Shown: piece after piece, positions 472 to 12,626 of the stretch
Layout: each line of letters starts with the position of its first letter
How positions within the stretch are numbered: position 1 is the first letter of the stretch
From: a virus
Virus record (IMG/VR): IMGVR_UViG_3300032286_000209
Span: 1-56,048 of that record
Reading direction: 5' to 3' (one strand)
Length of the DNA: 56,048 nt
Notes under the pieces: generated by a model
Seen by the model: the letters and a program-made list of their open reading frames with translations, nothing else
The model's database searches: none
Told to the model about the DNA's origin: nothing
Translations under genes and position numbers: made by a program

Positions 472-629
472 TTGACCAAATTGTTTCTGCTGAAAGCCCG
501 TGGCCCAATACTGAAACTAAGGTGGTGCTGATCTGCCGCCTTCCTAAGAAGGATGAAAAGCTGAGTGCTAATGAGTTTGTGGATAAAGACGGACGTATAT
601 GCCGCTGGACGGTAGTAAACAAGAAATAG
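468..629 (+). CDS. Small hypothetical protein, GTG start
   Basis: A 53-residue ORF begins with GTG at 468, overlapping the upstream stop by four bases (GTGA). It reads MIDQIVSAESPWPNTETK at the N-terminus and ends at a TAG at 627-629. The compact mixture of hydrophobic and charged residues, the tight overlap and the close spacing to the next ATG (12 bases) support it as a real gene. I do not recognise a domain. It has no membrane segment or signal peptide. Confidence 0.6.
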   Translation: MIDQIVSAESPWPNTETKVVLICRLPKKDEKLSANEFVDKDGRICRWTVVNKK

Positions 630-640
630 GAGTTGTTCTA

Positions 641-1131
641 ATGATTGACCCATTCACGGCTTTTGCTATGGCTCAGGCTGCGGTAGCAGGAATAAAAAAG
701 CAGTAGCCCTTGGTAAGGACATCCACAGCTTATATAAGGAATTTAGCGGTTTTTATCAAGCGGCAGATACCGTCCACTTAGCTAGTAGCAAAGCACGGAT
801 TGCTAGTATAGGTAAGACAGATGCACAGATTAGCGCACAAGCTCTTCAGATTGCACTAGCATCCAAAGCGTTGCGAGAGCATGAAAAAGAATTGAAGGAC
901 ATACTCTTCTATAGCGGGAATGCTCCGGTCTGGGAAGAGATGATGGCAGAGCGGACTAGGTTAGTTAAAGAACGAAATATGCTGGAGAGAGAAGAAGAAG
1001 AACGCAGACAGAAGGATAAAGAAGCGAAGGTTGCTATTATTATGAACACCCTTTGGCTAACAGGTGCAAGCGCTATTGTTGTTCCCCTAGTGGGAGCGTT
1101 ATTTCACATCATCACAAATAGGGGTTTTTAA
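641..1131 (+). CDS. Membrane/coiled-coil phage protein, apparently made by -1 frameshifting (or broken by a one-base deletion)
   Basis: ATG at 641 opens a reading frame that stops at TAG 704-706 after 21 codons. The -1 frame continues the protein without interruption to TGA/TAA at 1129-1131. The switch falls on the heptamer A AAA AAG at 694-700, read in frame as ATA AAA AAG, and slipping back one base gives ...GIKK|AVALGKD..., which matches phage proteins I know as one continuous frame (MIDPFTAF... KK.VALGKD). The full product is about 163 residues: a short N-terminus, a long charged helical region with an RxxEEEERRQKDKEAK coiled coil, and one C-terminal membrane span (about 140-158). A CCTT/AAGG mini-hairpin starts about 7 bases after the slip site. 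A missing A in the A6 run would look the same. Confidence 0.7.
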
Positions 1132-1631
1132 TGGACTGGCTTAAATCTGTAGCACCAACTCTTGCCACCGCACTAGGTGGCCCTCTCGCTGGCATGGCTG
1201 TCAGCGCTGTAGCTAAAGCTATTGGCTGCGAACCCGATGATGTACAAGGCATCATCAGCAGCAACAAGCTTACAGCAGAGCAGGTAGCTTCCATTCAATT
1301 GGCTGAGCTAGAGATTAAAAAACAAGCACAGTCTATGAACCTAGACTTTACAAAGCTGGTAGCTGAGGATAAGAAGTCTGCTAGAGATATGCAGATTGCA
1401 ACAAAGTCATGGATTCCTCCTGTGCTGGCTATGAGTGTAACGGCTGGTTTCTTTGGCATCTTGGCTGGATTGATGTATGGACAAATCCAACATGCCCCAC
1501 AAATTGATATAATGCTGGGTGCTTTAGGCACTGCTTGGACAGGTATAATCTCCTTCTACTTTGGATCCTCTGCCAGCAGCCAAGCTAAGAATGAGTTGAT
1601 TTACAACTCTAGACCATCAGAGAAAAGTTAA
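1131..1631 (+). CDS. Holin, three-transmembrane family
   Basis: This 166-residue protein starts on the last base of the previous stop. It has a hydrophobic Gly/Ala-rich N-terminus (residues 6-31), a charged middle with AELEIKKQAQSMNLDF, and two strong C-terminal membrane segments (about 96-115 and 126-147). The pattern, including 'DxxSARDMQ' before the SWIPPVLA membrane segment, is that of the phage 'holin of 3TMs' family (PF11351-like). Holins form lesions in the inner membrane and trigger lysis. The endolysin gene follows immediately, which supports the call. Confidence 0.85.
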   Translation: MDWLKSVAPTLATALGGPLAGMAVSAVAKAIGCEPDDVQGIISSNKLTAEQVASIQLAELEIKKQAQSMNLDFTKLVAEDKKSARDMQIATKSWIPPVLAMSVTAGFFGILAGLMYGQIQHAPQIDIMLGALGTAWTGIISFYFGSSASSQAKNELIYNSRPSEKS

Positions 1632-1637
1632 CAGCAT

Positions 1638-2165
1638 ATGAAGCTCAACTACGATAAAGCGTTTGAATTGGTTTTAAAATCAGAGGGTGGCTATGTCAAC
1701 GATCCCGACGATCACGGTGGAGAAACCAACTTAGGAGTTACTAAGGCAGCTTGGATGTCTTATCTAGGTGTGAAAGAACTACCTGTCAATGCTATGCGTG
1801 AGTTGACAAAAGAGAAGGTTAAGCCTTTCTACAAGAAGATGTATTGGGACAAAGTATGTGGAGACGATCTGCCATCAGGCATTGACTACCTAGCCTTTGA
1901 TTTTGCTGTCAATGCCGGTACAGGACAGGCGGCTAAGTTTGTTCAGCGGGCCGTTGGTGCTGTGGCTGATGGTGCTATTGGCCCAGCCACAATGGAGAAG
2001 GTAATTAAGACAGCCTCAGCGGATCTGCTTACTAGCTTCAGCACACAGAAAGAGAACTTCTACAAAGACATTGTAGCTAGAAAACCCACCCAAGCTAAGT
2101 TCCTTAAGGGATGGCTTACTAGAACAGCCGCTGTTGAGAAAGCTGCTAGAACAATGCTTGTTTAA
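1638..2165 (+). CDS. Endolysin: glycoside hydrolase 108 N-acetylmuramidase
   Basis: This 175-residue protein carries the GH108 signature near its N-terminus: SEGGYVNDPDDHGGETNLGV, with the catalytic Glu at residue 16 and the GGxTxxGVT segment following. The rest (YLAFDFAVNAGTGQAAKFVQ ... DGAIGPATMEKV) matches the peptidoglycan-binding half (PG_binding_3-like). It should cut the glycan strand of peptidoglycan once the holin admits it to the periplasm. No signal peptide is visible, in keeping with holin-dependent export. It lies 6 bases after the holin gene. The length is typical for the family. Confidence 0.93.
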   Translation: MKLNYDKAFELVLKSEGGYVNDPDDHGGETNLGVTKAAWMSYLGVKELPVNAMRELTKEKVKPFYKKMYWDKVCGDDLPSGIDYLAFDFAVNAGTGQAAKFVQRAVGAVADGAIGPATMEKVIKTASADLLTSFSTQKENFYKDIVARKPTQAKFLKGWLTRTAAVEKAARTMLV

Positions 2166-2167
2166 TT

Positions 2168-2485
2168 ATGCAAGAGGTTCCTAATAAAGTTAACATCTTC
2201 GGCAGAGAATATACTATAACTGCCAAAGAACTTTTGGATGGATCCACAGACAGAGAAGAAACATTGGGTCAATGTATAAACGACAAGCTGTGCATAGAGA
2301 TTAAAAAGGGACAGCACTCTTTGTTGGAAGCAGACACTTTGCTACATGAAATAATTCATGCTATAGATGAGATTATGCAAACAAGGATGACAGAAAGACA
2401 AGTGTGCTGTGTAGCCACTGGTCTTATAGGAGTATTGAAAACTAACCCAGAGTTTAATGAGTATTTATATAGGATGACTAGATAA
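2168..2485 (+). CDS. Small zinc metallopeptidase-like protein
   Basis: A 105-residue protein containing LLHEIIHAIDE (about residues 57-67), which is an HExxH zinc-binding motif. A flanking EADT segment and the beta strands before it suit the small 'SprT/ImmA-like' or phage metallopeptidase-related group. Similar short proteins occur in many phages between lysis and structural genes, usually without a known substrate. It could act on the cell wall or on virion proteins; neither can be decided here. The stop overlaps the next start (TAATG). Confidence 0.7.
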   Translation: MQEVPNKVNIFGREYTITAKELLDGSTDREETLGQCINDKLCIEIKKGQHSLLEADTLLHEIIHAIDEIMQTRMTERQVCCVATGLIGVLKTNPEFNEYLYRMTR

Positions 2486-4317
2486 TGAAAGAAACTTTCA
2501 CAGAACAGCAGAGAGAAATTGTAGCCCGTAAGATGGGCTATGATGGCCCTATGCAGATGTTTGATGAATATCTAGCATCCACTCCATCTGATGCCACTAA
2601 GTATGCTGCCATCACTTCTAAGTATGCGCTTAAGATGGCTGAGGGTGGCTTAGCTCAGATTGATAATAGCACAACAACCACAGAAGTTACGGATGGAAGT
2701 GATGCCGTTCCTGTTGCACCAGCGCCTACCATCGTCATCCCCGCTACAACAACACCCACTGAAGGAATGCAAGCTGTGCCAACCACAGCGGCTCCTGCTG
2801 TTAGCACTGTAGCAACTTCAATTGCCCCAGCAGAAGTAAAAACTGTAGCTGCTCCAACCGCTGTACAGACAACGGGAATTACTCCCACCACTTCACAGGC
2901 CGCTGTTCAAGCGGAGCTAGATAAGACAAAGGCTGTTCAAGGGGCGGTGTCGGAACAAGGACAGGCCACTGCTGCCGTAATGGAACCAACAGCAACTGCT
3001 GTTAAGAATCTGCAAGCAGCACAAGGCACTGCCGCTCAAACTGTAGCACCAGCAGAAAGAGCAATACAGGCTGGAGAAATGGTTAGTGGCACTGCTGTAG
3101 ATCAAGCTAGGGTGAGTGAAGCACTGGCACAGAACGTAGCAGCACAAGGCACTGTCACTGAAGACATGACCACCACTGGTCAGCTTAATAAGTTGATGAC
3201 ATCGTTTGACGCTGGCGCTCCTCCTCCGTGGGCAGCAGCTTCTATCCGCTCTGTTACGGCTCAGCTAGCAGCTAGAGGACTAGGAGCATCTAGCTTGGCT
3301 GGACAGGCCATCATTCAAGCCACTCTTGAATCGGCAGTTCCTATCGCCAATGCTGATGCTAAGATTTATGCAGACATGGGCTTAGTTAACTTGTCCAATA
3401 GACAAGCCATAGCTATTGAAACAGCTAAGCAAAGAGCAGCTTTCCTTGGGCAGGAGTTTGATCAAGGCTTCCAAACAAAGGTGCTGAATGCAGCTAAGAT
3501 TGCTGATGTTGCTAATAAGAATTTCGATGCTAGTGTAACCATTGCACTAGAGAATTCCAGACTTGCTAACAGTATGAGCATTTCTAATCTATCGGCAAAG
3601 AATGCTTTGGTGTTAGCTGAGGCTGCTCAACTTTCTTCGTTGGAGACAGCTAATCTAAACAACCGTCAACAAGTTGCTGTGGATAATGCTAAAGCTTTCT
3701 TGGCTATGGATCTGAAGAACACAGACATTGCCAGCCAAACTAATTTGATTAAGGCTCAGACAATTGCTAATACCATTGTCAGTGATACAGCAGCAGAGAA
3801 CGCAGCTAAGGCTACCAATGCCGCCAATGAATTAGAAGCCAACAAAATTAATGCAACCCTTGCTCTCACTGCATCACAGTATAACTCGTCAGAGCAGAAC
3901 AGAGTATTAATTGCTAACAACAACGCCATTAATGAGATTGCTAAATTCAACTCCAGTGAAACCAACAAGCGAGAAGAGTTTAATGCTACAATGTCAAACC
4001 AAATTAACATTGCTAATGCTAAACTCTTGGCTGATATCTCCACTGCTAATACAAGAGAAGTGAATGCAGCTAATGCTGTGAATGCAAAGAATGCTACAGA
4101 TCAATCCTCTTCTGTTTATGCTCAGCAGATGCAGACATACAGGGATTTGTTAGAGCTTTCCTATAAAGCTGGAGAGAATGACAAAGATAGACTGACTCAA
4201 ATAGCAACAGCTACCATCACTGCTAATGCTAGTAAAACAGCAGCAGAAATTAAAGCTAATAGCGAGAGTGCTTCTGCTTGGGGAAAACTTGCTTTTGATA
4301 TTTACAAGGCGTGGTAA
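2485..4317 (+). CDS. Large Ala/Thr/Asn-rich internal virion or tail-associated protein
   Basis: A 610-residue protein of low complexity. It has an ordered N-terminus (1-60), then a Pro/Ala/Thr/Val-rich linker (60-180), then a long predicted helical section (about 230-590) rich in Asn, Ala and Ser with phrases such as NAKIADVANKNFD and ENAAKATNAANELE. No enzyme motif is seen. KMAEGGLAQ at residues 50-58 is one copy of an A-K/E-GG motif that recurs in other virion-arm proteins. Its place in front of the two very large proteins suggests it belongs to the set of ejection (internal core) proteins. That role is inferred. Confidence 0.7.
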   Translation: MKETFTEQQREIVARKMGYDGPMQMFDEYLASTPSDATKYAAITSKYALKMAEGGLAQIDNSTTTTEVTDGSDAVPVAPAPTIVIPATTTPTEGMQAVPTTAAPAVSTVATSIAPAEVKTVAAPTAVQTTGITPTTSQAAVQAELDKTKAVQGAVSEQGQATAAVMEPTATAVKNLQAAQGTAAQTVAPAERAIQAGEMVSGTAVDQARVSEALAQNVAAQGTVTEDMTTTGQLNKLMTSFDAGAPPPWAAASIRSVTAQLAARGLGASSLAGQAIIQATLESAVPIANADAKIYADMGLVNLSNRQAIAIETAKQRAAFLGQEFDQGFQTKVLNAAKIADVANKNFDASVTIALENSRLANSMSISNLSAKNALVLAEAAQLSSLETANLNNRQQVAVDNAKAFLAMDLKNTDIASQTNLIKAQTIANTIVSDTAAENAAKATNAANELEANKINATLALTASQYNSSEQNRVLIANNNAINEIAKFNSSETNKREEFNATMSNQINIANAKLLADISTANTREVNAANAVNAKNATDQSSSVYAQQMQTYRDLLELSYKAGENDKDRLTQIATATITANASKTAAEIKANSESASAWGKLAFDIYKAW

Positions 4318-4320
4318 ATT

Positions 4321-4536
4321 ATGCAACAGATTAAAAACTATTTCAAGAAGATTGAAGCTGTCTTGGAGAAGAGAAAGCTCACTCCTAAGAAGAAGTCTTC
4401 CAAGTCTAAGGGACTGCTGGCTGCTCCTCCCTCTGTAGAGAAGGCAGAGAAAGAAGACCCAACAATTAAGATGGTGGCAGACTACATCGAAGGCATCAGA
4501 GAAACAAGACAGGAGATCTTAGATGGCAACAAATGA
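4321..4536 (+). CDS. Small basic virion-arm protein
   Basis: A 71-residue protein, very Lys-rich in the first half (LEKRKLTPKKKSSKSKG), with a short acidic helical C-terminus (MVADYIEGIRETRQEILDGN). It starts 3 bases after the previous stop. The end overlaps the next gene by 14 bases, so the two are probably translationally coupled. Its role is unknown; a DNA-binding or virion-packaged small protein would fit the charge, but this is inference. Confidence 0.65.
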   Translation: MQQIKNYFKKIEAVLEKRKLTPKKKSSKSKGLLAAPPSVEKAEKEDPTIKMVADYIEGIRETRQEILDGNK

Positions 4537-5023
4537 ACTAACTGCTGGACAGGTGTTGCAGCCTATCCCTGCTGGAATCTCTTGGACTGCACCGGAGAAA
4601 AGCAGAGCATGGCAGAATCCTCCTAAGTTTACAAAGCTTTCTGATGTAGCTAATAACTACATTACTATGTTGTCTTCTAAGCAGATGGCTAATACTGTGT
4701 TGGATGCCATAGACACTAAGGCTCCTCTAGCTTCTTTAGCTGAAGTTATCATGCTCAGTGGTGTGCAGAAGGGCGCTCATACTTTGGATACTGGTGTACT
4801 TGTTATGCCCATCATCGTTGAGATGTTAAAGACAGTGGCTATGTTACACGATGTTAAAACAGTTACATATTCTGAGGAATATGATGATATGCGTGCTATA
4901 CCTACTAGAGCAGTTAAGATGGCTTTGGCTAGTAGTATGGAAATGCCAACAGAAGAGATGTCTTTACCTGCCGAAGAACCGAAGGCGGGATTGATGCAGC
5001 GTAAAACTAAAGTGGGGATTTAA
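4523..5023 (+). CDS. Putative structural protein of the internal-core cluster
   Basis: A 166-residue protein. It begins with a Pro-rich segment (PIPAGISWTAPEKSRAWQNP), followed by a helical core (SDVANNYITMLSSKQMANTVLDAID and a hydrophobic TGVLVMPIIVEMLKTVAML), and a flexible acidic C-terminus ending GLMQRKTKVGI. Proteins with this plan ('P[IP]PG.SLT.PP..WE.PP', then a helical core, then 'GLM.R') occur in structural clusters of marine podoviruses. It is likely a virion component, perhaps an adaptor between ejection proteins. It overlaps the upstream gene and lies one base before the next. Confidence 0.65.
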   Translation: MATNELTAGQVLQPIPAGISWTAPEKSRAWQNPPKFTKLSDVANNYITMLSSKQMANTVLDAIDTKAPLASLAEVIMLSGVQKGAHTLDTGVLVMPIIVEMLKTVAMLHDVKTVTYSEEYDDMRAIPTRAVKMALASSMEMPTEEMSLPAEEPKAGLMQRKTKVGI

Positions 5024-5024
5024 C

Positions 5025-7298
5025 ATGTTTGATTGGACATCTTTTGGTACTGGTTTTGCTAAAGCTGCCAGCGAAAACTTTGCTAAAGAAGAAGAAGATG
5101 CAAGAGCGCTGGGTGCTGCTAATGTTAAATCTATGTATGAGAACTACGCCTCTGTTGTAAAAGAAAACAGAACGCTTTCTAACGACATTAAAGAGAAGAT
5201 TAATATTGTTAAAGGCTTTGCCCCTGATGCTACAGATGATCAGTTGGTTGCTCTTGCCCAAGACAGAGGAATCTTGGACATGCTGTCTACTAGACTAAAA
5301 GAGAAAGACTTTGATCCTACTGGCTTTAACATCAATAACTTTGTTAAAGTGGCAAACCCTTCCAATTCTCCATTAGCGGCTGAGGATCGTATCAATCAGT
5401 TGTTCACTATTCCCTCTGCTGTTAATAATGCTTCTGCCGCCTTCAAGTCCCTTACTCCTGAAGGTGAAGTTAAAGAAAGCCCCGGCTTCCTCTCCTACTT
5501 CGACCCTGTTGGCTTAGCTAAAAGAGGCGGTGAAAAAGAGGCCAGAGTCAGCGCCGAGAAAACTGCTGCTGCTCTGGGTGTGCCTTTGGAGAAACTCCAA
5601 GGAGCAATGGGATATAGAAGAGATATCAAACCGTCTGGTGCTGAGTATGATTTGGTTGCGCTAAAACCCGGCAAGACACTAGATCAAAGCATAGACGATG
5701 CTGCTGTTAAGCTGGCTGCTGCCCAGAAGAAGGGTGATGCTAAAGATATCGAACTGGCTAAGGCTAATGTAGATAATCTAACTTCCGTTAAACAGTCGCT
5801 GAGCGATCCACAGCAGAAGTGGCTGAACAAGGTTGCCTCGCTTAAAGACAAGCAGCTTAACGGCACTGATAAAGAAAAGGCTGATGCCACACAGCAACTA
5901 GATGCCATCTATGCAGAAGAGAAGAGAGCTACTTTAGCTAAACAAATGCCGAAAGAGCAAAGAGACAATCTGATTGCTCAAAAAGAAATTGATGCTAACA
6001 GCAATGATCCCAAGAAAGCAAAAGAAGCATTAGATTGGTTGCTCAATGAGGCAGGTGTTCAGGCTAAGGTTGCTGAGGCTAAGCAGACAACTTCACAGCA
6101 ACGTGAAAACTATCTTGCCGACCTTGATTTGAAAGCTAAAGGCCAGCGCGGTACAGAGGCAGAACAAGTAGCGGCCCAAGCAAAGCTAGTTGAGATGAAG
6201 AAGCTTGATAAGCTTGTTGCAGAAGCTGGTCAAACTGATGTCCAAGCCAGAGAGAATAGACTTGCTGCTTTGAAGACTAAGGCAGACGCTGGTGATGTTG
6301 CTGCCAAGAATGAGTTGTTGCAGGTAGCAGCAATTGATAAAGCTATTTCAGAAGCTAAACAAACTGACGCTGAGAAGCTGACCAACATGAAGGCTCAGTT
6401 GATCTCTGCGTCTGCTGCTGGTGACAAAGACGCTGAGCTTAAGCTCCAAGCATTGTTTGCTGTGGAAGGTGCAGAGGCCCGCGCTAAAGAAGGTGCTGCT
6501 GCACAGCGTACTAACCGCATTGCAGAATTGAAGACAAAACTGGCGGCTGGTGATACCTCTGTTAAAGCAGAACTTGATAGCGCCATTGCTATAGACGCTG
6601 CTGCTAAGAAACAAGAACAAGAGGCTCTACAGAGTGATGTAGCTAAGCGCAACGACAGACTTGCTGCCTTGCAGACCACCATCACCACTTCCACAAATCC
6701 AGCAGAAGTTAAAGCAGCTAGGACACAGATGGCTAAGGAACTGAAGCTCATTGCTGATGAGGCTAGAGCCAGACAAGTTCCTACAGCCGCTTCAGATAAA
6801 GTGCCAGCCTTGGGTGCTTTGAATAGCTTTGTTGCTGTCGCTGTTACTCAGGCAGTGCAGAATAAGCACGGCAATTTGAAGAACGATATGGCTATTGTGA
6901 GCAGACCTAATGGTGATGGAACATTCTATCAAGACTACGATTATGTTGGTGATGATCCTGTATTGAGGAAACAGATTGCTGACACCAAAGCTGCGGCAGC
7001 TAGGAAAGCGCTATCTGTATATACAGACAACAACGGTAAGCCATTAGATAGAAATGTCCAAGCTGTTATGAATGTTTGGGTTGGATCTGCTGCGGCTCCA
7101 GCAGGGACAGAAACAGAAACAGGAACAGGTAAAGGAAAAGGGCTAGGCTCTAGAGCAGCTTCTAACACCACCACTACAGGATCTGGAGACAACACAGTGG
7201 TCACTGTTACAGACCCCACAGGAACTCCTCGTGTATTCAAAGGTAAAGACGCAGCTAGTAAAGCAGCAGGATTCAAGGCAGCAGCAGGAATTAACTAA
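5025..7298 (+). CDS. Internal virion (ejection) protein with degenerate helical repeats
   Basis: A 757-residue, mostly helical protein. Residues 1-200 look like an ordered N-terminal domain. From about 258 to 577 the sequence falls into about seven weakly conserved repeats of 40-48 residues, with a core like R(E/D)NRLAALKTKxxAGDxxAK and then AIDKAISEAKQ. The C-terminus is Gly/Thr-rich (TETETGTGKGKGLGSR) and ends in a small compact piece. No enzymatic motif was found. By size and position it is a candidate equivalent of a T7-type core protein that is ejected into the cell with the DNA. Its stop overlaps the next ATG. Confidence 0.7.
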   Translation: MFDWTSFGTGFAKAASENFAKEEEDARALGAANVKSMYENYASVVKENRTLSNDIKEKINIVKGFAPDATDDQLVALAQDRGILDMLSTRLKEKDFDPTGFNINNFVKVANPSNSPLAAEDRINQLFTIPSAVNNASAAFKSLTPEGEVKESPGFLSYFDPVGLAKRGGEKEARVSAEKTAAALGVPLEKLQGAMGYRRDIKPSGAEYDLVALKPGKTLDQSIDDAAVKLAAAQKKGDAKDIELAKANVDNLTSVKQSLSDPQQKWLNKVASLKDKQLNGTDKEKADATQQLDAIYAEEKRATLAKQMPKEQRDNLIAQKEIDANSNDPKKAKEALDWLLNEAGVQAKVAEAKQTTSQQRENYLADLDLKAKGQRGTEAEQVAAQAKLVEMKKLDKLVAEAGQTDVQARENRLAALKTKADAGDVAAKNELLQVAAIDKAISEAKQTDAEKLTNMKAQLISASAAGDKDAELKLQALFAVEGAEARAKEGAAAQRTNRIAELKTKLAAGDTSVKAELDSAIAIDAAAKKQEQEALQSDVAKRNDRLAALQTTITTSTNPAEVKAARTQMAKELKLIADEARARQVPTAASDKVPALGALNSFVAVAVTQAVQNKHGNLKNDMAIVSRPNGDGTFYQDYDYVGDDPVLRKQIADTKAAAARKALSVYTDNNGKPLDRNVQAVMNVWVGSAAAPAGTETETGTGKGKGLGSRAASNTTTTGSGDNTVVTVTDPTGTPRVFKGKDAASKAAGFKAAAGIN

Positions 7299-10200
7299 TG
7301 GACTATGAAGCACTGGCTAAGAAGTACGGTGGGGAAACGGTTGCTCCTCAGGTTTCACCCGGAAGACAGCAGCGTACCCCTACTTTGTATGACGTTGACT
7401 ATTCCAAAGTGGCTAAAGAGTTTGGAGGAACCACTATTTCTGATTCAGGAGATCTTCCTGAAGCTCCCATGCTTCTGCCGCCTATCCTTGTAGAATCAAG
7501 TAGTGCTGCTGCTCCTGTAGCTGATAAGTCCAGAGTATCGGCAGCGTTCAGTTATAAATCTAAGCTTGCTGAGAAGTTTGCTCCTAGAGCAGAGGCTATG
7601 CAAGAGAAAGTGGCACAGGCAAAACTGACAGAAGAGAGCAAGATTCCTGTTGCTAAACTATCCAGTGACCCTGAAAACTACAAAACAATTCTTGACTTCA
7701 GTAAAGCTAGATACAACCGTGTACCAGCTAAGGGAGAAACCAAAGAAGAGTTTGTATCTAAATTCCTCACTGATATGAGGAACGATGACTTCAACACACT
7801 GGATCTAGTTTCAACTCTTAACTACATGCGTAACGCTAAGCCAGAGGATGCTGCTAAGACAGCACTGGCTAAGGCGTTGTATGAGAAGACAGCCTCTCCC
7901 TTTGATGTTAGAGGTGGTGGACAGAAAGGCTTTAGTCCCTACTACGATGTACTGAAGGCACTGGCGACAGATCCTGTTAATTACTTCGGTGGTGTTACTG
8001 GATTCTTTGGTAAGCAAGCAATTAAAGCTGGTATACGCCAACAGACTGCCGCTGCTCTTGGTCAACAGGCAGCAAAGACAGGAGTAGCTAAAGCCCTCAC
8101 TGCTACACCAACTAAGGTGGTAGCTACAGCTACTGGTGGAGAGGCTGTTATTGGTGTTGCACAAAGCGCTGCTCAGCAGAGACTGGGCCAAGAAACACAG
8201 AAAGCTTTAGGCCAAGAAGTAGATGACTTGTCTGCTTCTCAAATGGCTGTAGCTGCCATCTTCTCTGCATCTTTTGGTTATGTCGGAGCCAAAGGAACAA
8301 TGACAACCTTTGGTAAGTCTGGTGCAGATGATCTAAACAACTTGATGGATAAGGCTAAAAAAGAGGCTGCTGTTACCAATCCCAATGCTCCTACCACCCC
8401 AGTGGAAAGACAGCTTGCAGATCCTGTGGCTGCTCAGATGAATCTGGAAGCTGAAGAGTTTATGAAGAGAGAAGGTAAAAGAATACTGGATGAAGTGTCT
8501 CCAGCTACTCCTTTGCTGGATGCAAAGATTGCTAACGACATGTCAGCTAGGGCTGTTCGTGTTGCCCGTCACATCATTGAGAATGACCCATCATTTCAGC
8601 TTGGGCCAAATGAGAAGATAAGCACAGCCATTTCCAGTGTGTTCTCTAAACTAGACTCCGGTGAAATCAATGATGCTGTGCTGGAGCAAGCCATCAATGC
8701 AGCAGGACTTACTCCAAGAGAGTTTGCTCAAGCTAATAAGCTTACAGTGACAGAAGCTGCTTCTATTATGCAGCAATACTCTGTCGCTTCTAGGGCCATG
8801 AACAAACTCAAGGAAATTGATCCTGAGTTTAAGAAGATGGCTGATGAATTGTTTGGTAAGCCTGATGACTACACATCAGCAATTGGCTGGGTTGGTAAAG
8901 GAATCAGCAGGGTAGAAAGAGAAAGTAAAGCTTTTGTTGTCAGTGGCATTGGAACCACGGTACGAAATGTATTGGGTACTATGCCAGTGCTAACCTACAC
9001 ATCTGCTGCTTCTGTCATTGAAGGTACTCTTTATACAGCGGGTAAGGTGCTATCTGATGGTGCTTCAGGGCAGCGTCTGCAAACCCTCAAGCGTGGAATG
9101 GCTGACACAATGAAGGATGCGTTCTCTGTCTACGGCTACCTAGCTAAGACAGACTTGTCTGATGAAGTTACCTACTCTTTGCTAGAACACAACCCATCTA
9201 TTAGAAACAACATCTTAAGCGCCACTCAAGAAGGAAGCAATAAAGAACTATCTCAAGCAGCGCAGCTATTCAACAGCCTGAATGCTACGCAAGATGCGTG
9301 GTTTAGAAAAGCTATTTTCAATGCTGCCGTAGAGAAGAATGCAAGAAGAGCAGGACTAGATCCATTCCTCATCATGGCAGAAGGTAAGTCTGTTCCTGCT
9401 TCTATTCTTCAGAAGTCTGCTGATGATGCTCTTAAATCTACATTCTCTTATCAACCTAAGGTGCAGCCTAAAGGACTAGGTTCACTGGAAGCCGGTGCTG
9501 AAACTACTGCTAATTATTTCATCAAGGCTGCTGAGCTTCCGGGTGGTAGCTTGTTTGCTACATTCCCCCGCTTCATGAGCAACGCAATTGCATTCCAATA
9601 TAGATACAGTGTACTAGGCGCTGCCAGTGGTGCAGAAGACATGCTGCGTGGTGGTGCTATGGAAGCGGCAGGAGATGCTGCTGGTGCTGGCCTGAAGCGT
9701 CAGGGGCAGGAGAACCTAGCTAAGGGCGTTGTTGGTACTGCTGCACTGGCAGCGGCCTATGACTATCGCATGAACAATCAAGACAGCAATTGGGCAGAGA
9801 TAAAGAAGGAAGATGGATCCTCTGTAGACATGAGATCTATTTTCCCTATTGGCCCACTGTTGGCTGTAGCTGATGTCATAGCTAAGGTGAAGCTTGGTGA
9901 GAAGCCCGACACTGCCGGTGCTTTAGAAGCTGTGGTGGGAATGAAGATGCCAGCGGGTACACAGAGCCAATTCCTAGACCAGTTGTTTGCTGCTTTCTCT
10001 TCTGAGAAAGATGCAGATAAGATGGAAGTTGCTGTTGGTAAAGTGCTAGGTGACTTCACTGCCCGCTTTGCTGCTCCCTTTGTGTTTAAGAGTGGATATG
10101 AATTCCTAGACTTGTTTAGAGAACAAGGAACTATCCAGCGGGATCCCAATGTTATAACTGCTGATACCACTACCGGAAGAATCGCTGAGGCTGCTGTTAA

Positions 10201-10765
10201 TAGAGTGCAGGGTAAACTGCCAATCCTGAAAGAAGACCTACCTGAAGCTGTGCCTCGCCTTAGAGAAGGGCCAATTGTTAAGGAAGGTGAATTCTTTAAT
10301 AGCTTGGTTGGTATCAGAGAGATACCGAAGAAGACACCAGCAGAGGAAGAGATTACTAAAGTTAATGCTGATCCATTCAGAGTATATGGTGGTAGCAGTG
10401 GCAATAAGACTTATGACAGAGCATTCATTGAGCAAGTTAATCCTCGCGCCATTGCTTATATCGAGAAGCTGATTGAGAAGGACACATATCAGAAGCTGTC
10501 CTTAGCAGAGAAAAGAGAGAAGATACAGGCAGTGCTGTCTAGAGCAACAGAAGTTGCTACACTACAGACACGGGCTAGCTTTATGGAAACTCCTGAAGGT
10601 AGGACAATGCTGAACAAGATGGAGTTTGACAAGCTCACTGCTGATGATCGTAAGATTATTAATGAGCGCTATGCTAAGGAACACAATGGTATTACTTTGG
10701 AAGAGGCTAACGCCTACGATAAGGTGAAGGCTTACAAAGCTAAGTTAGCTAATGTGAAGAATTAA
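7298..10765 (+). CDS. Very large internal virion (ejection) protein
   Basis: At 1155 residues this is the longest gene in the window. It starts on the last base of the previous stop. It has a short N-terminal repeat of 'KKYGGxTVA' / 'KEFGGTTIS' (residues 7-15 and 31-39), amphipathic and hydrophobic helices around 200-350, and a hydrophobic segment around 770-830. Late regions carry RSIFPIGPLLAVADVIAKV and many short charged helices. I see no lysozyme or transglycosylase motif. In podoviruses the largest helical protein of this cluster forms the trans-envelope conduit (compare T7 gp16). The role is inferred from size and neighbours. Confidence 0.75.
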   Translation: MDYEALAKKYGGETVAPQVSPGRQQRTPTLYDVDYSKVAKEFGGTTISDSGDLPEAPMLLPPILVESSSAAAPVADKSRVSAAFSYKSKLAEKFAPRAEAMQEKVAQAKLTEESKIPVAKLSSDPENYKTILDFSKARYNRVPAKGETKEEFVSKFLTDMRNDDFNTLDLVSTLNYMRNAKPEDAAKTALAKALYEKTASPFDVRGGGQKGFSPYYDVLKALATDPVNYFGGVTGFFGKQAIKAGIRQQTAAALGQQAAKTGVAKALTATPTKVVATATGGEAVIGVAQSAAQQRLGQETQKALGQEVDDLSASQMAVAAIFSASFGYVGAKGTMTTFGKSGADDLNNLMDKAKKEAAVTNPNAPTTPVERQLADPVAAQMNLEAEEFMKREGKRILDEVSPATPLLDAKIANDMSARAVRVARHIIENDPSFQLGPNEKISTAISSVFSKLDSGEINDAVLEQAINAAGLTPREFAQANKLTVTEAASIMQQYSVASRAMNKLKEIDPEFKKMADELFGKPDDYTSAIGWVGKGISRVERESKAFVVSGIGTTVRNVLGTMPVLTYTSAASVIEGTLYTAGKVLSDGASGQRLQTLKRGMADTMKDAFSVYGYLAKTDLSDEVTYSLLEHNPSIRNNILSATQEGSNKELSQAAQLFNSLNATQDAWFRKAIFNAAVEKNARRAGLDPFLIMAEGKSVPASILQKSADDALKSTFSYQPKVQPKGLGSLEAGAETTANYFIKAAELPGGSLFATFPRFMSNAIAFQYRYSVLGAASGAEDMLRGGAMEAAGDAAGAGLKRQGQENLAKGVVGTAALAAAYDYRMNNQDSNWAEIKKEDGSSVDMRSIFPIGPLLAVADVIAKVKLGEKPDTAGALEAVVGMKMPAGTQSQFLDQLFAAFSSEKDADKMEVAVGKVLGDFTARFAAPFVFKSGYEFLDLFREQGTIQRDPNVITADTTTGRIAEAAVNRVQGKLPILKEDLPEAVPRLREGPIVKEGEFFNSLVGIREIPKKTPAEEEITKVNADPFRVYGGSSGNKTYDRAFIEQVNPRAIAYIEKLIEKDTYQKLSLAEKREKIQAVLSRATEVATLQTRASFMETPEGRTMLNKMEFDKLTADDRKIINERYAKEHNGITLEEANAYDKVKAYKAKLANVKN

Positions 10766-10778
10766 TTGGGGATATCTT

Positions 10779-12626
10779 TTGGCATTATTTAGTAAATTAG
10801 CTGCTCCTCTTATTGAGGAAGTTGGCACAGATGTGCTTAAAAAAGAGGCAGGTGTTGTAGCTTCTAAAGTTGTTAAGCCATCTCCTCTTATATCTAAAAC
10901 AGCTACATCTGTTTCTAAGAAACAACTGGAGATGGAGGCTGCTTCTGCTGTTGATGATGTCTTGGGCATCGCCCCTAAACCAAAGGTAGTGGAGCAGACA
11001 GCTATAGTGCTGGCTAAGAAGAAGCCCGCTGCTGTCATTCCCGACATCCCCCTTTCATCCACTAAGCGCCCCGTCTTTCAGCCTACATCTACTTCTAAGG
11101 TGGTAAAAGACGAAGGGCTATATTTAGGTGAGGTGGAAAGAGAAGGACGCTTTGTAGATAATGCAGAGCCTGTGCTTGCTAAGCAGGAAGCTGCACCAGC
11201 ACCAGAAGCCGCTGTAACTCCTACACCACCAGCAGAAGAAGTTCCTGTGTGGAAACAGCAATACGATCTGTATAAGAAGTACGAAGCAGAAGGAGAAGAT
11301 GTTGGAGACTTCGATCCCGATGCACCTTTCTCTTGGAACAATCCTGAGAAACAAGAAGTAAGACCGGCAAAGCTACCAGAAGCACCAGCTATTCCTGAAT
11401 CTAAAGTGGTTCAAGGTAACTTAGATAATACTAGCTTTGCACGAAATGGGCCTACCTCTAGAAAGCAAGTGCTGTCCACCATCAGGGAAATAAGAACAGA
11501 TGCTTTTGATAGCCTTATCAATCTTCCTAAAGTAAAAGAATTACCAGATGCTGAAGATGTAATGGCAGTGGTGCAGGGAGACTTCCGATTAAATCAAGGC
11601 AGAGAGATTAATCTTTCTAGCCCTAAGGATATAGCCGTTGTTGAAGATATGGCTGCTTCAGCGCAGAAGAGATTAGACGCTTTGCGTGTGGAATACAAGG
11701 ATACGCCACCTATTAAACTCTATCATGGTAAGGATGCCACATGGAATGAAGCACCTACCAATAGATTTATAACAGGCTTTGAAGACCCACAAAAGTTTAG
11801 TAAATACCACAGTGAGTTGGAAGTGGGCGGCACATCTTTCACCAGAGATCTTAACCTCAATTTTGAGACATCCTCTTTTGGTGGTACAAATCCCAACAAG
11901 TTCTTGTACACCGAAATGCCGTATGCTGATTACATGTTTAAGAGAATTAACATGACACCGACAGCATACGAAGATAAGAATTTGAATGTCATTGCTCAGT
12001 CAATCAATGGATCTGACAGAGTAATTAGACCCGTTAGCATACCTAGGTCTGCCAGCTTCAAAGAAACAGAAGACATGATTACGGAGACAGACAAGCTTCG
12101 TCCTGAAGGAAAAGGAACAGGCAGTCAGCTAGAAGTTAAATCAGGGAAGACTGAAGTGGCTGATAAGTCTGCTGGATTCTTGGAGAGAAGAAAACAAGAA
12201 GATAAGATTAAAGAGAACATCATCTCTTTATCCGGTGACTTAAACACAGAGAGAGGTGTTGTTGCTGCTAATAAGATTTACACTGAGCTAAGAAATCTTC
12301 TCAACAATTATCTAGAGAAAGCTAGCCTGACATCCACTAGGGCAGGGATGGGCCAGCGATATCACCAAGAACTTACTAACTTAGGTGTTATCAGAGGAGA
12401 GAAAGATGTTGTGTCTACAGACTCAATGCTTAAAACAGTAAGCACTATCTTGGAAAAGCAAGGGTCTAAAGAGAAAGCATCCCTACTCAGATCTTTGAGA
12501 ACTGAGTTGAGAGTGCTTGAACAGGGCTACAGAGCAGACTCACAAAAACAAGTGCAGTCTGTCAACAAAGTTAGAGAGCTAACCCAGAAGTTTGCTAAGG
12601 GTGGGTTAGCTTCTAAGAAGAGTTAG
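10779..12626 (+). CDS. Internal virion protein, TTG start, last gene of the rightward arm
   Basis: A 615-residue protein. The best start is TTG at 10779 (MALFSKLAAPLIEEVG), with GGGGA about 8 bases upstream; no ATG lies near. A Pro/Ala-rich linker (about 125-215) joins an N-terminal helical part to a middle domain with LYHGKDATWNEAPTNRF (about 313-329), which recalls the start of ADP-ribosyltransferase-like or ART-type folds ('yHGT..'), but I see no full catalytic set. The C-terminus has coiled-coil helices and ends KFAKGGLASKKS, a copy of the recurring A-K/E-GG motif. Its TAG stop overlaps the stop of the opposing gene. Confidence 0.68.
   Translation: MALFSKLAAPLIEEVGTDVLKKEAGVVASKVVKPSPLISKTATSVSKKQLEMEAASAVDDVLGIAPKPKVVEQTAIVLAKKKPAAVIPDIPLSSTKRPVFQPTSTSKVVKDEGLYLGEVEREGRFVDNAEPVLAKQEAAPAPEAAVTPTPPAEEVPVWKQQYDLYKKYEAEGEDVGDFDPDAPFSWNNPEKQEVRPAKLPEAPAIPESKVVQGNLDNTSFARNGPTSRKQVLSTIREIRTDAFDSLINLPKVKELPDAEDVMAVVQGDFRLNQGREINLSSPKDIAVVEDMAASAQKRLDALRVEYKDTPPIKLYHGKDATWNEAPTNRFITGFEDPQKFSKYHSELEVGGTSFTRDLNLNFETSSFGGTNPNKFLYTEMPYADYMFKRINMTPTAYEDKNLNVIAQSINGSDRVIRPVSIPRSASFKETEDMITETDKLRPEGKGTGSQLEVKSGKTEVADKSAGFLERRKQEDKIKENIISLSGDLNTERGVVAANKIYTELRNLLNNYLEKASLTSTRAGMGQRYHQELTNLGVIRGEKDVVSTDSMLKTVSTILEKQGSKEKASLLRSLRTELRVLEQGYRADSQKQVQSVNKVRELTQKFAKGGLASKKS

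Follow-up and report, generated by a model that had tools for sequence, protein, structure and literature searches.

The well-known conserved frameshifts of tailed phages reside mostly in tail-chaperone and capsid genes. In E. coli, few motifs are as prone to shifting as A_AAA_AAG, and the stimulators of -1 frameshifting usually begin 5-8 nt downstream (PMC4066793). The locus described here carries the same heptamer and lies on an IMG/VR record analysed over its whole length of 56,048 bases (the window), which contains genes for terminase, portal, major head protein, DNA polymerase, primase/helicase and integrase. Its nearest annotated records, all of them distant, are a Manatee Spring podovirus and HMO-2011-type marine phages. 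The gene with the heptamer is located (on the + strand, as are the other parts of the locus) 5' of a gene for a 166-aa protein with a hydrophobic stretch (1131..1631; profile match to phrog_1544), considered holin-like from its position and hydrophobicity, which is followed by a GH108 endolysin gene (1638..2165; Glyco_hydro_108 and PG_binding_3 by profile/domain match). For five large ORFs at 2485-12626 (610, 166, 757, 1155 and 615 aa), no PHROG match was obtained at E 1e-4; judged by position, they probably encode virion proteins. A scan of bacterial genomes for a possible host retrieved no relative.

The gene opens with a zero-frame ORF of 21 aa (641..706; MIDPFTAFAMAQAAVAGIKKQ), whose ATG at 641 is preceded at a distance of 8 nt by a Shine-Dalgarno-like AGGAG (628..632); this type of start signal is absent from some relatives, and in many of them the start overlaps the stop of the upstream gene instead. 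The heptamer A AAA AAG (694..700) stands in the phase of a programmed -1 site of the form X_XXY_YYZ, read as ATA AAA AAG CAG TAG, such that the zero frame ends one codon past it. The -1 frame is open from G700 for 143 codons up to the stop at 1129-1131 (700..1131) and encodes the rest of a 163-aa protein, the N-terminus of which is provided by the zero-frame codons up to the heptamer. This arrangement had been recognized in a previous sequence-only reading, and its core proposal, that the A AAA AAG of a lysis-region gene serves programmed -1 frameshifting, now has strong comparative support.

An IMG/VR scan yielded 159 relatives confirmed by tblastn, 80 of which were retained (86-92 % identical); exact ATAAAAAAG was present in 81/81 sequences read, including the window. 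A pattern scan for the shifted form matched at least 119 contigs, with ATAAAAAAG in 118/118 sites read back, as compared to five contigs matched by a broad pattern for the in-frame form. After removal of duplicates, all 107 distinct shifted sequences of the window's clade share exact ATAAAAAAG and the same relation of the two frames. Among clade members, no A7 variant was found, the run being A6 in every shifted member. Of the 91 degenerate codons with an unchanging amino acid, only four are invariant at the nucleotide level, three of them being ATA, AAA and AAG of the site; by our own arithmetic, the chance of three given codons falling among 4/91 is about 3e-5.

Across 91 complete sequences, pN/pS amounts to 0.085 for zero-frame codons 3-17 and to 0.072 for -1 frame codons 1-57, as opposed to 1.6-6.9 in the respective wrong frames. 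These values show strong purifying selection in both frames, with the selected frame switching at the heptamer, as expected of a programmed -1 site.

Downstream of the heptamer, the 5' arm of a predicted stem (706..720; GCCCTTGGTAAGGAC) and a 28-nt loop (721..748) are followed by the 3' arm (749..764; GTTTTTATCAAG, bulged C761, GGC). Positions 706-720 pair with 749-760 and 762-764, yielding 15 pairs with one bulge. The stem begins with a G-C pair at +6, after a spacer of 5 nt, and its dimensions fit the rules applied to E. coli stimulators in PMC4066793. In the window, its minimum free energy (-17.9 kcal/mol) is lower than that of all 200 dinucleotide shuffles (z -3.34). The stem is retained in 51 of 56 distinct sequences, where 94.0 % of the cells are paired versus 36-57 % with the partner slid by 1-3 columns; the covariation score is 0.189 compared to 0.149 after shuffling (0/500) and 0.05-0.08 after sliding. 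Pair +8/+62 (708/762) joins two third codon positions at a distance of 54 nt and alternates between C-G and U-A; on the tree, each position has undergone at least six changes, and the two agree in 88/90 rows. Its mutual information ranks first among the 13,861 variable-site pairs of the gene (raw) and third after APC, behind adjacent columns only. The three supported independent pairs all have the same direction, too few for significance (sign test, p 0.25). Synonymous variability drops downstream of the heptamer, and the stem matches part of this dip.

Taken singly, some main-clade stems are weak (z -0.2 to -0.7), and folding of the 90-nt stretch 701-790 gave a z of only -0.64, though the same stem was predicted. 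RNAalifold, applied to several segments, revealed no signal relative to column shuffles, since the stem stands out only with pair counting and tight bounds. In the main clade, the structure starts where a stimulator is expected, at a distance of about 4-10 nt on the 3' side of the heptamer, whereas a subclade of five sequences (L232, L252, L209, L144 and L109) has kept A AAA AAG and lacks the consensus 15-bp stem. Two other elements had been put forward as weak stimulators. The short hairpin CCTT-GGT-AAGG was rejected, as it is not conserved and its bases belong to the 706-720/749-764 stem; the latter, overlooked by the sequence-only reading, appears to be the relevant stimulatory structure. 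Likewise discarded was the upstream AGGA as an internal Shine-Dalgarno stimulator of the dnaX type, an optional element of such sites, because only 4/85 distinct sequences carry AGGA or longer.

Taken together, the gene is very probably expressed by programmed -1 ribosomal frameshifting, the full protein being formed only upon slipping. While the signal is documented by comparative sequence analysis, we infer the slip itself and its efficiency. Ribosomes starting at 641 would arrive at ATA AAA AAG and be slowed at the heptamer by the 15-bp stem 5 nt downstream; the two lysyl-tRNAs on AAA AAG would slip back by one base to pair with AAA AAA, and translation would resume at GCA (700), leading to a helical membrane protein of 163 residues. 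Ribosomes that do not slip would stop after 1 or 26 further codons and release a peptide of 21 or 46 residues. The stop one codon past the heptamer, and with it the 21-residue peptide formerly proposed as a second product, is not conserved, being restricted to 25/91 relatives, while the remaining ones end after 46 residues; the non-shifted peptide is probably a by-product. The likely role of the shift would be to keep the amount of the membrane protein low and fixed; the timing role in lysis suggested by the sequence-only reading may be a further possibility.

An identical protein would result if RNA polymerase added one A to the A6 run and the A7 mRNA were translated normally. Such transcriptional slippage is said to be possible on shorter runs in some bacteria (PMC1088944), and no shifted member departs from a run length of six; efficient cases, however, involve A or T runs of some 8-9 bases or longer (PMC3711429, PMC1088944), in contrast to the A6 found throughout. 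Moreover, the motif is an exact, in-phase A_AAA_AAG heptamer, and the covarying stem, being downstream, could not influence a polymerase that has yet to leave the run. This 3' structure would still be untranscribed while RNA polymerase crosses the A run, a point in favour of the ribosomal mechanism. Slippage of the polymerase is improbable.

Even less probable is the presence of two genes, i.e., a gene for a short peptide and, behind it, a gene in the -1 frame with a start of its own. The short zero-frame ORF does have its own Shine-Dalgarno-like sequence in the window, but the -1 frame there contains no ATG, GTG or TTG before codon 58 (871), and in 88/91 sequences no start codon is present in this frame between the preceding stop and the heptamer. 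The first start codon of the -1 frame is found at codon 53 or later in most sequences (at codon 2 or 4 in six), and the first 57 codons are under strong purifying selection; furthermore, full-length in-frame homologues carry both parts as one protein. Loss of one base from an otherwise continuous gene, by assembly error or recent inactivating mutation, had been regarded as an equally good explanation; since the state is common to about 100 distinct A6 sequences of diverse metagenomic origin, both frames are under purifying selection and a search for A7 members found none, it is refuted as an account of the present state, but it retains its value as the likely evolutionary origin, as distant homologues are continuous and the base was hence probably lost at some time.

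With regard to this origin, the homologues of cultured phages (HMO-2011, CRP phages, DC31 and others) have MIDPxTAxA...IKK[G/A] within a single frame; unbroken full-length relatives had also been mentioned in the earlier reading. Since distant homologues are continuous, the frameshift signal arose within the window's clade: the shifted state is derived, the in-frame IKK codons having probably lost one A, and the stem is specific to this clade. Independent frameshifts elsewhere in the family (phrog_32327) were sought at ATAAAAAAGG and not found; the search gave 22 matches, and the family members among them (all except L313, which has the site in an unrelated frame) are read through. Many members of the family (L309-L330) have A AAA AAG in phase inside one continuous frame, where low-level -1 slipping could yield truncated by-products.

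Three of the five in-frame contigs (L098, L101 and L102) form one diverged lineage, 43 % identical to L221, whereas the remaining two (L099/L100, the same as L221/L222) are close relatives. L221/L222 are nested in the shifted clade as sister to the five sequences in which the slippery site is kept and the consensus stem is lacking, and they read ATC AAA AAG GCC in frame at the site, with a different predicted fold at the place of the stem. In these two members, both slippery site and stem were lost secondarily. At the 5' end of their gene (L221:1440-1560, and likewise L222), an extra T (CCTTTTCGTT) once more shifts the ATG out of frame; judged from the sequence, translation would have to begin at a TTG that overlaps the TGA of the upstream gene, or to shift +1 at CCT TTT C. 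A plain frame from ATG to the end was found in none of the close relatives examined.

The 163-aa protein belongs to phrog_32327, matched by profile over most of its length (E 2.7e-4 for the -1 frame part in the window, E 1.9e-6 for the in-frame L221); neither this family nor phrog_1544 has an assigned function. Structure prediction, modelled on L221, yielded an all-helical protein (mean pLDDT 81) with a long C-terminal helix holding the hydrophobic stretch. A Pfam search detected no domain, a fold search against the PDB nothing significant, and the viral structure library only uncharacterised phage proteins. Several homologues are encoded near lysozyme, holin or peptidase genes.

In the window, the -1 frame ends in a stop that overlaps the holin-like gene's start codon (TAATG, 1129..1133), and such a stop/start overlap (TAATG or ATGA) is present in 83/91 relatives. 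The gene 3' of the frameshift gene varies between unrelated-looking types (MDWLK..., MIPIIGALL..., MSEEKIQAM..., MFDILTGG...), with the overlap mostly kept. In L209 and L109, two of the sequences without the consensus stem, the overlap is also lost (start 17 nt away). Retention of the overlap despite differing next genes suggests that the shift controls the supply of ribosomes to the gene that follows and may thus set the number of ribosomes reaching the holin-like gene. One may speculate that the frameshift acts as a lysis gate, in that only slipped ribosomes reach the overlap and reload on the next gene, the slip rate thereby fixing holin synthesis. Stop/start overlaps are, however, frequent in phages, and therefore coupling to the next gene is a proposal only. 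The gate, though plausible, is rather improbable.

The frameshift concerns a small membrane protein whose gene stands beside the lysis genes of an abundant group of freshwater phages; gene-calling programs would break such a gene in two or overlook it. Searches of the open-access literature retrieved no description of this case. With in-frame IKK relatives, a clade one base shorter and equipped with a stem, and a sub-branch with loss, the family displays the birth of a frameshift signal and renders the evolution of recoding directly testable.

Among known systems, E. coli dnaX employs the same heptamer in the same phase, with a stem-loop a few nucleotides downstream as in the phage gene. The genes are unrelated and differ in that dnaX has an upstream Shine-Dalgarno sequence, which is not conserved in the phage gene, and in that the shift leads to the short product in dnaX and to the long one here. 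Insertion sequences of the IS3 family (IS911/IS3) likewise combine an A_AAA_AAG-type site with a downstream structure and join a short first frame to a long second one; their stimulators are branched hairpins or pseudoknots as opposed to the simple stem of the phage gene, and again the genes are unrelated. Conserved frameshifting in tailed phages is also represented by the tail-assembly-chaperone genes and by gene 10 of T7/T3, where it serves morphogenesis or capsid genes rather than a small lysis-region membrane protein; unlike in these cases, the short product here is not a conserved domain. For the proposed coupling, an analogy is provided by the lysis gene of MS2, an RNA phage with another mechanism, where recoding/termination in the coat gene delivers ribosomes to the overlapping lysis gene. 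Closest by descent are the in-frame homologues of the same family in HMO-2011, the Roseobacter phages CRP-x and Limnohabitans phage DC31, all of which are read through, while several other members of phrog_32327 have ATAAAAAAG at the same IKK codons and yet remain in frame.
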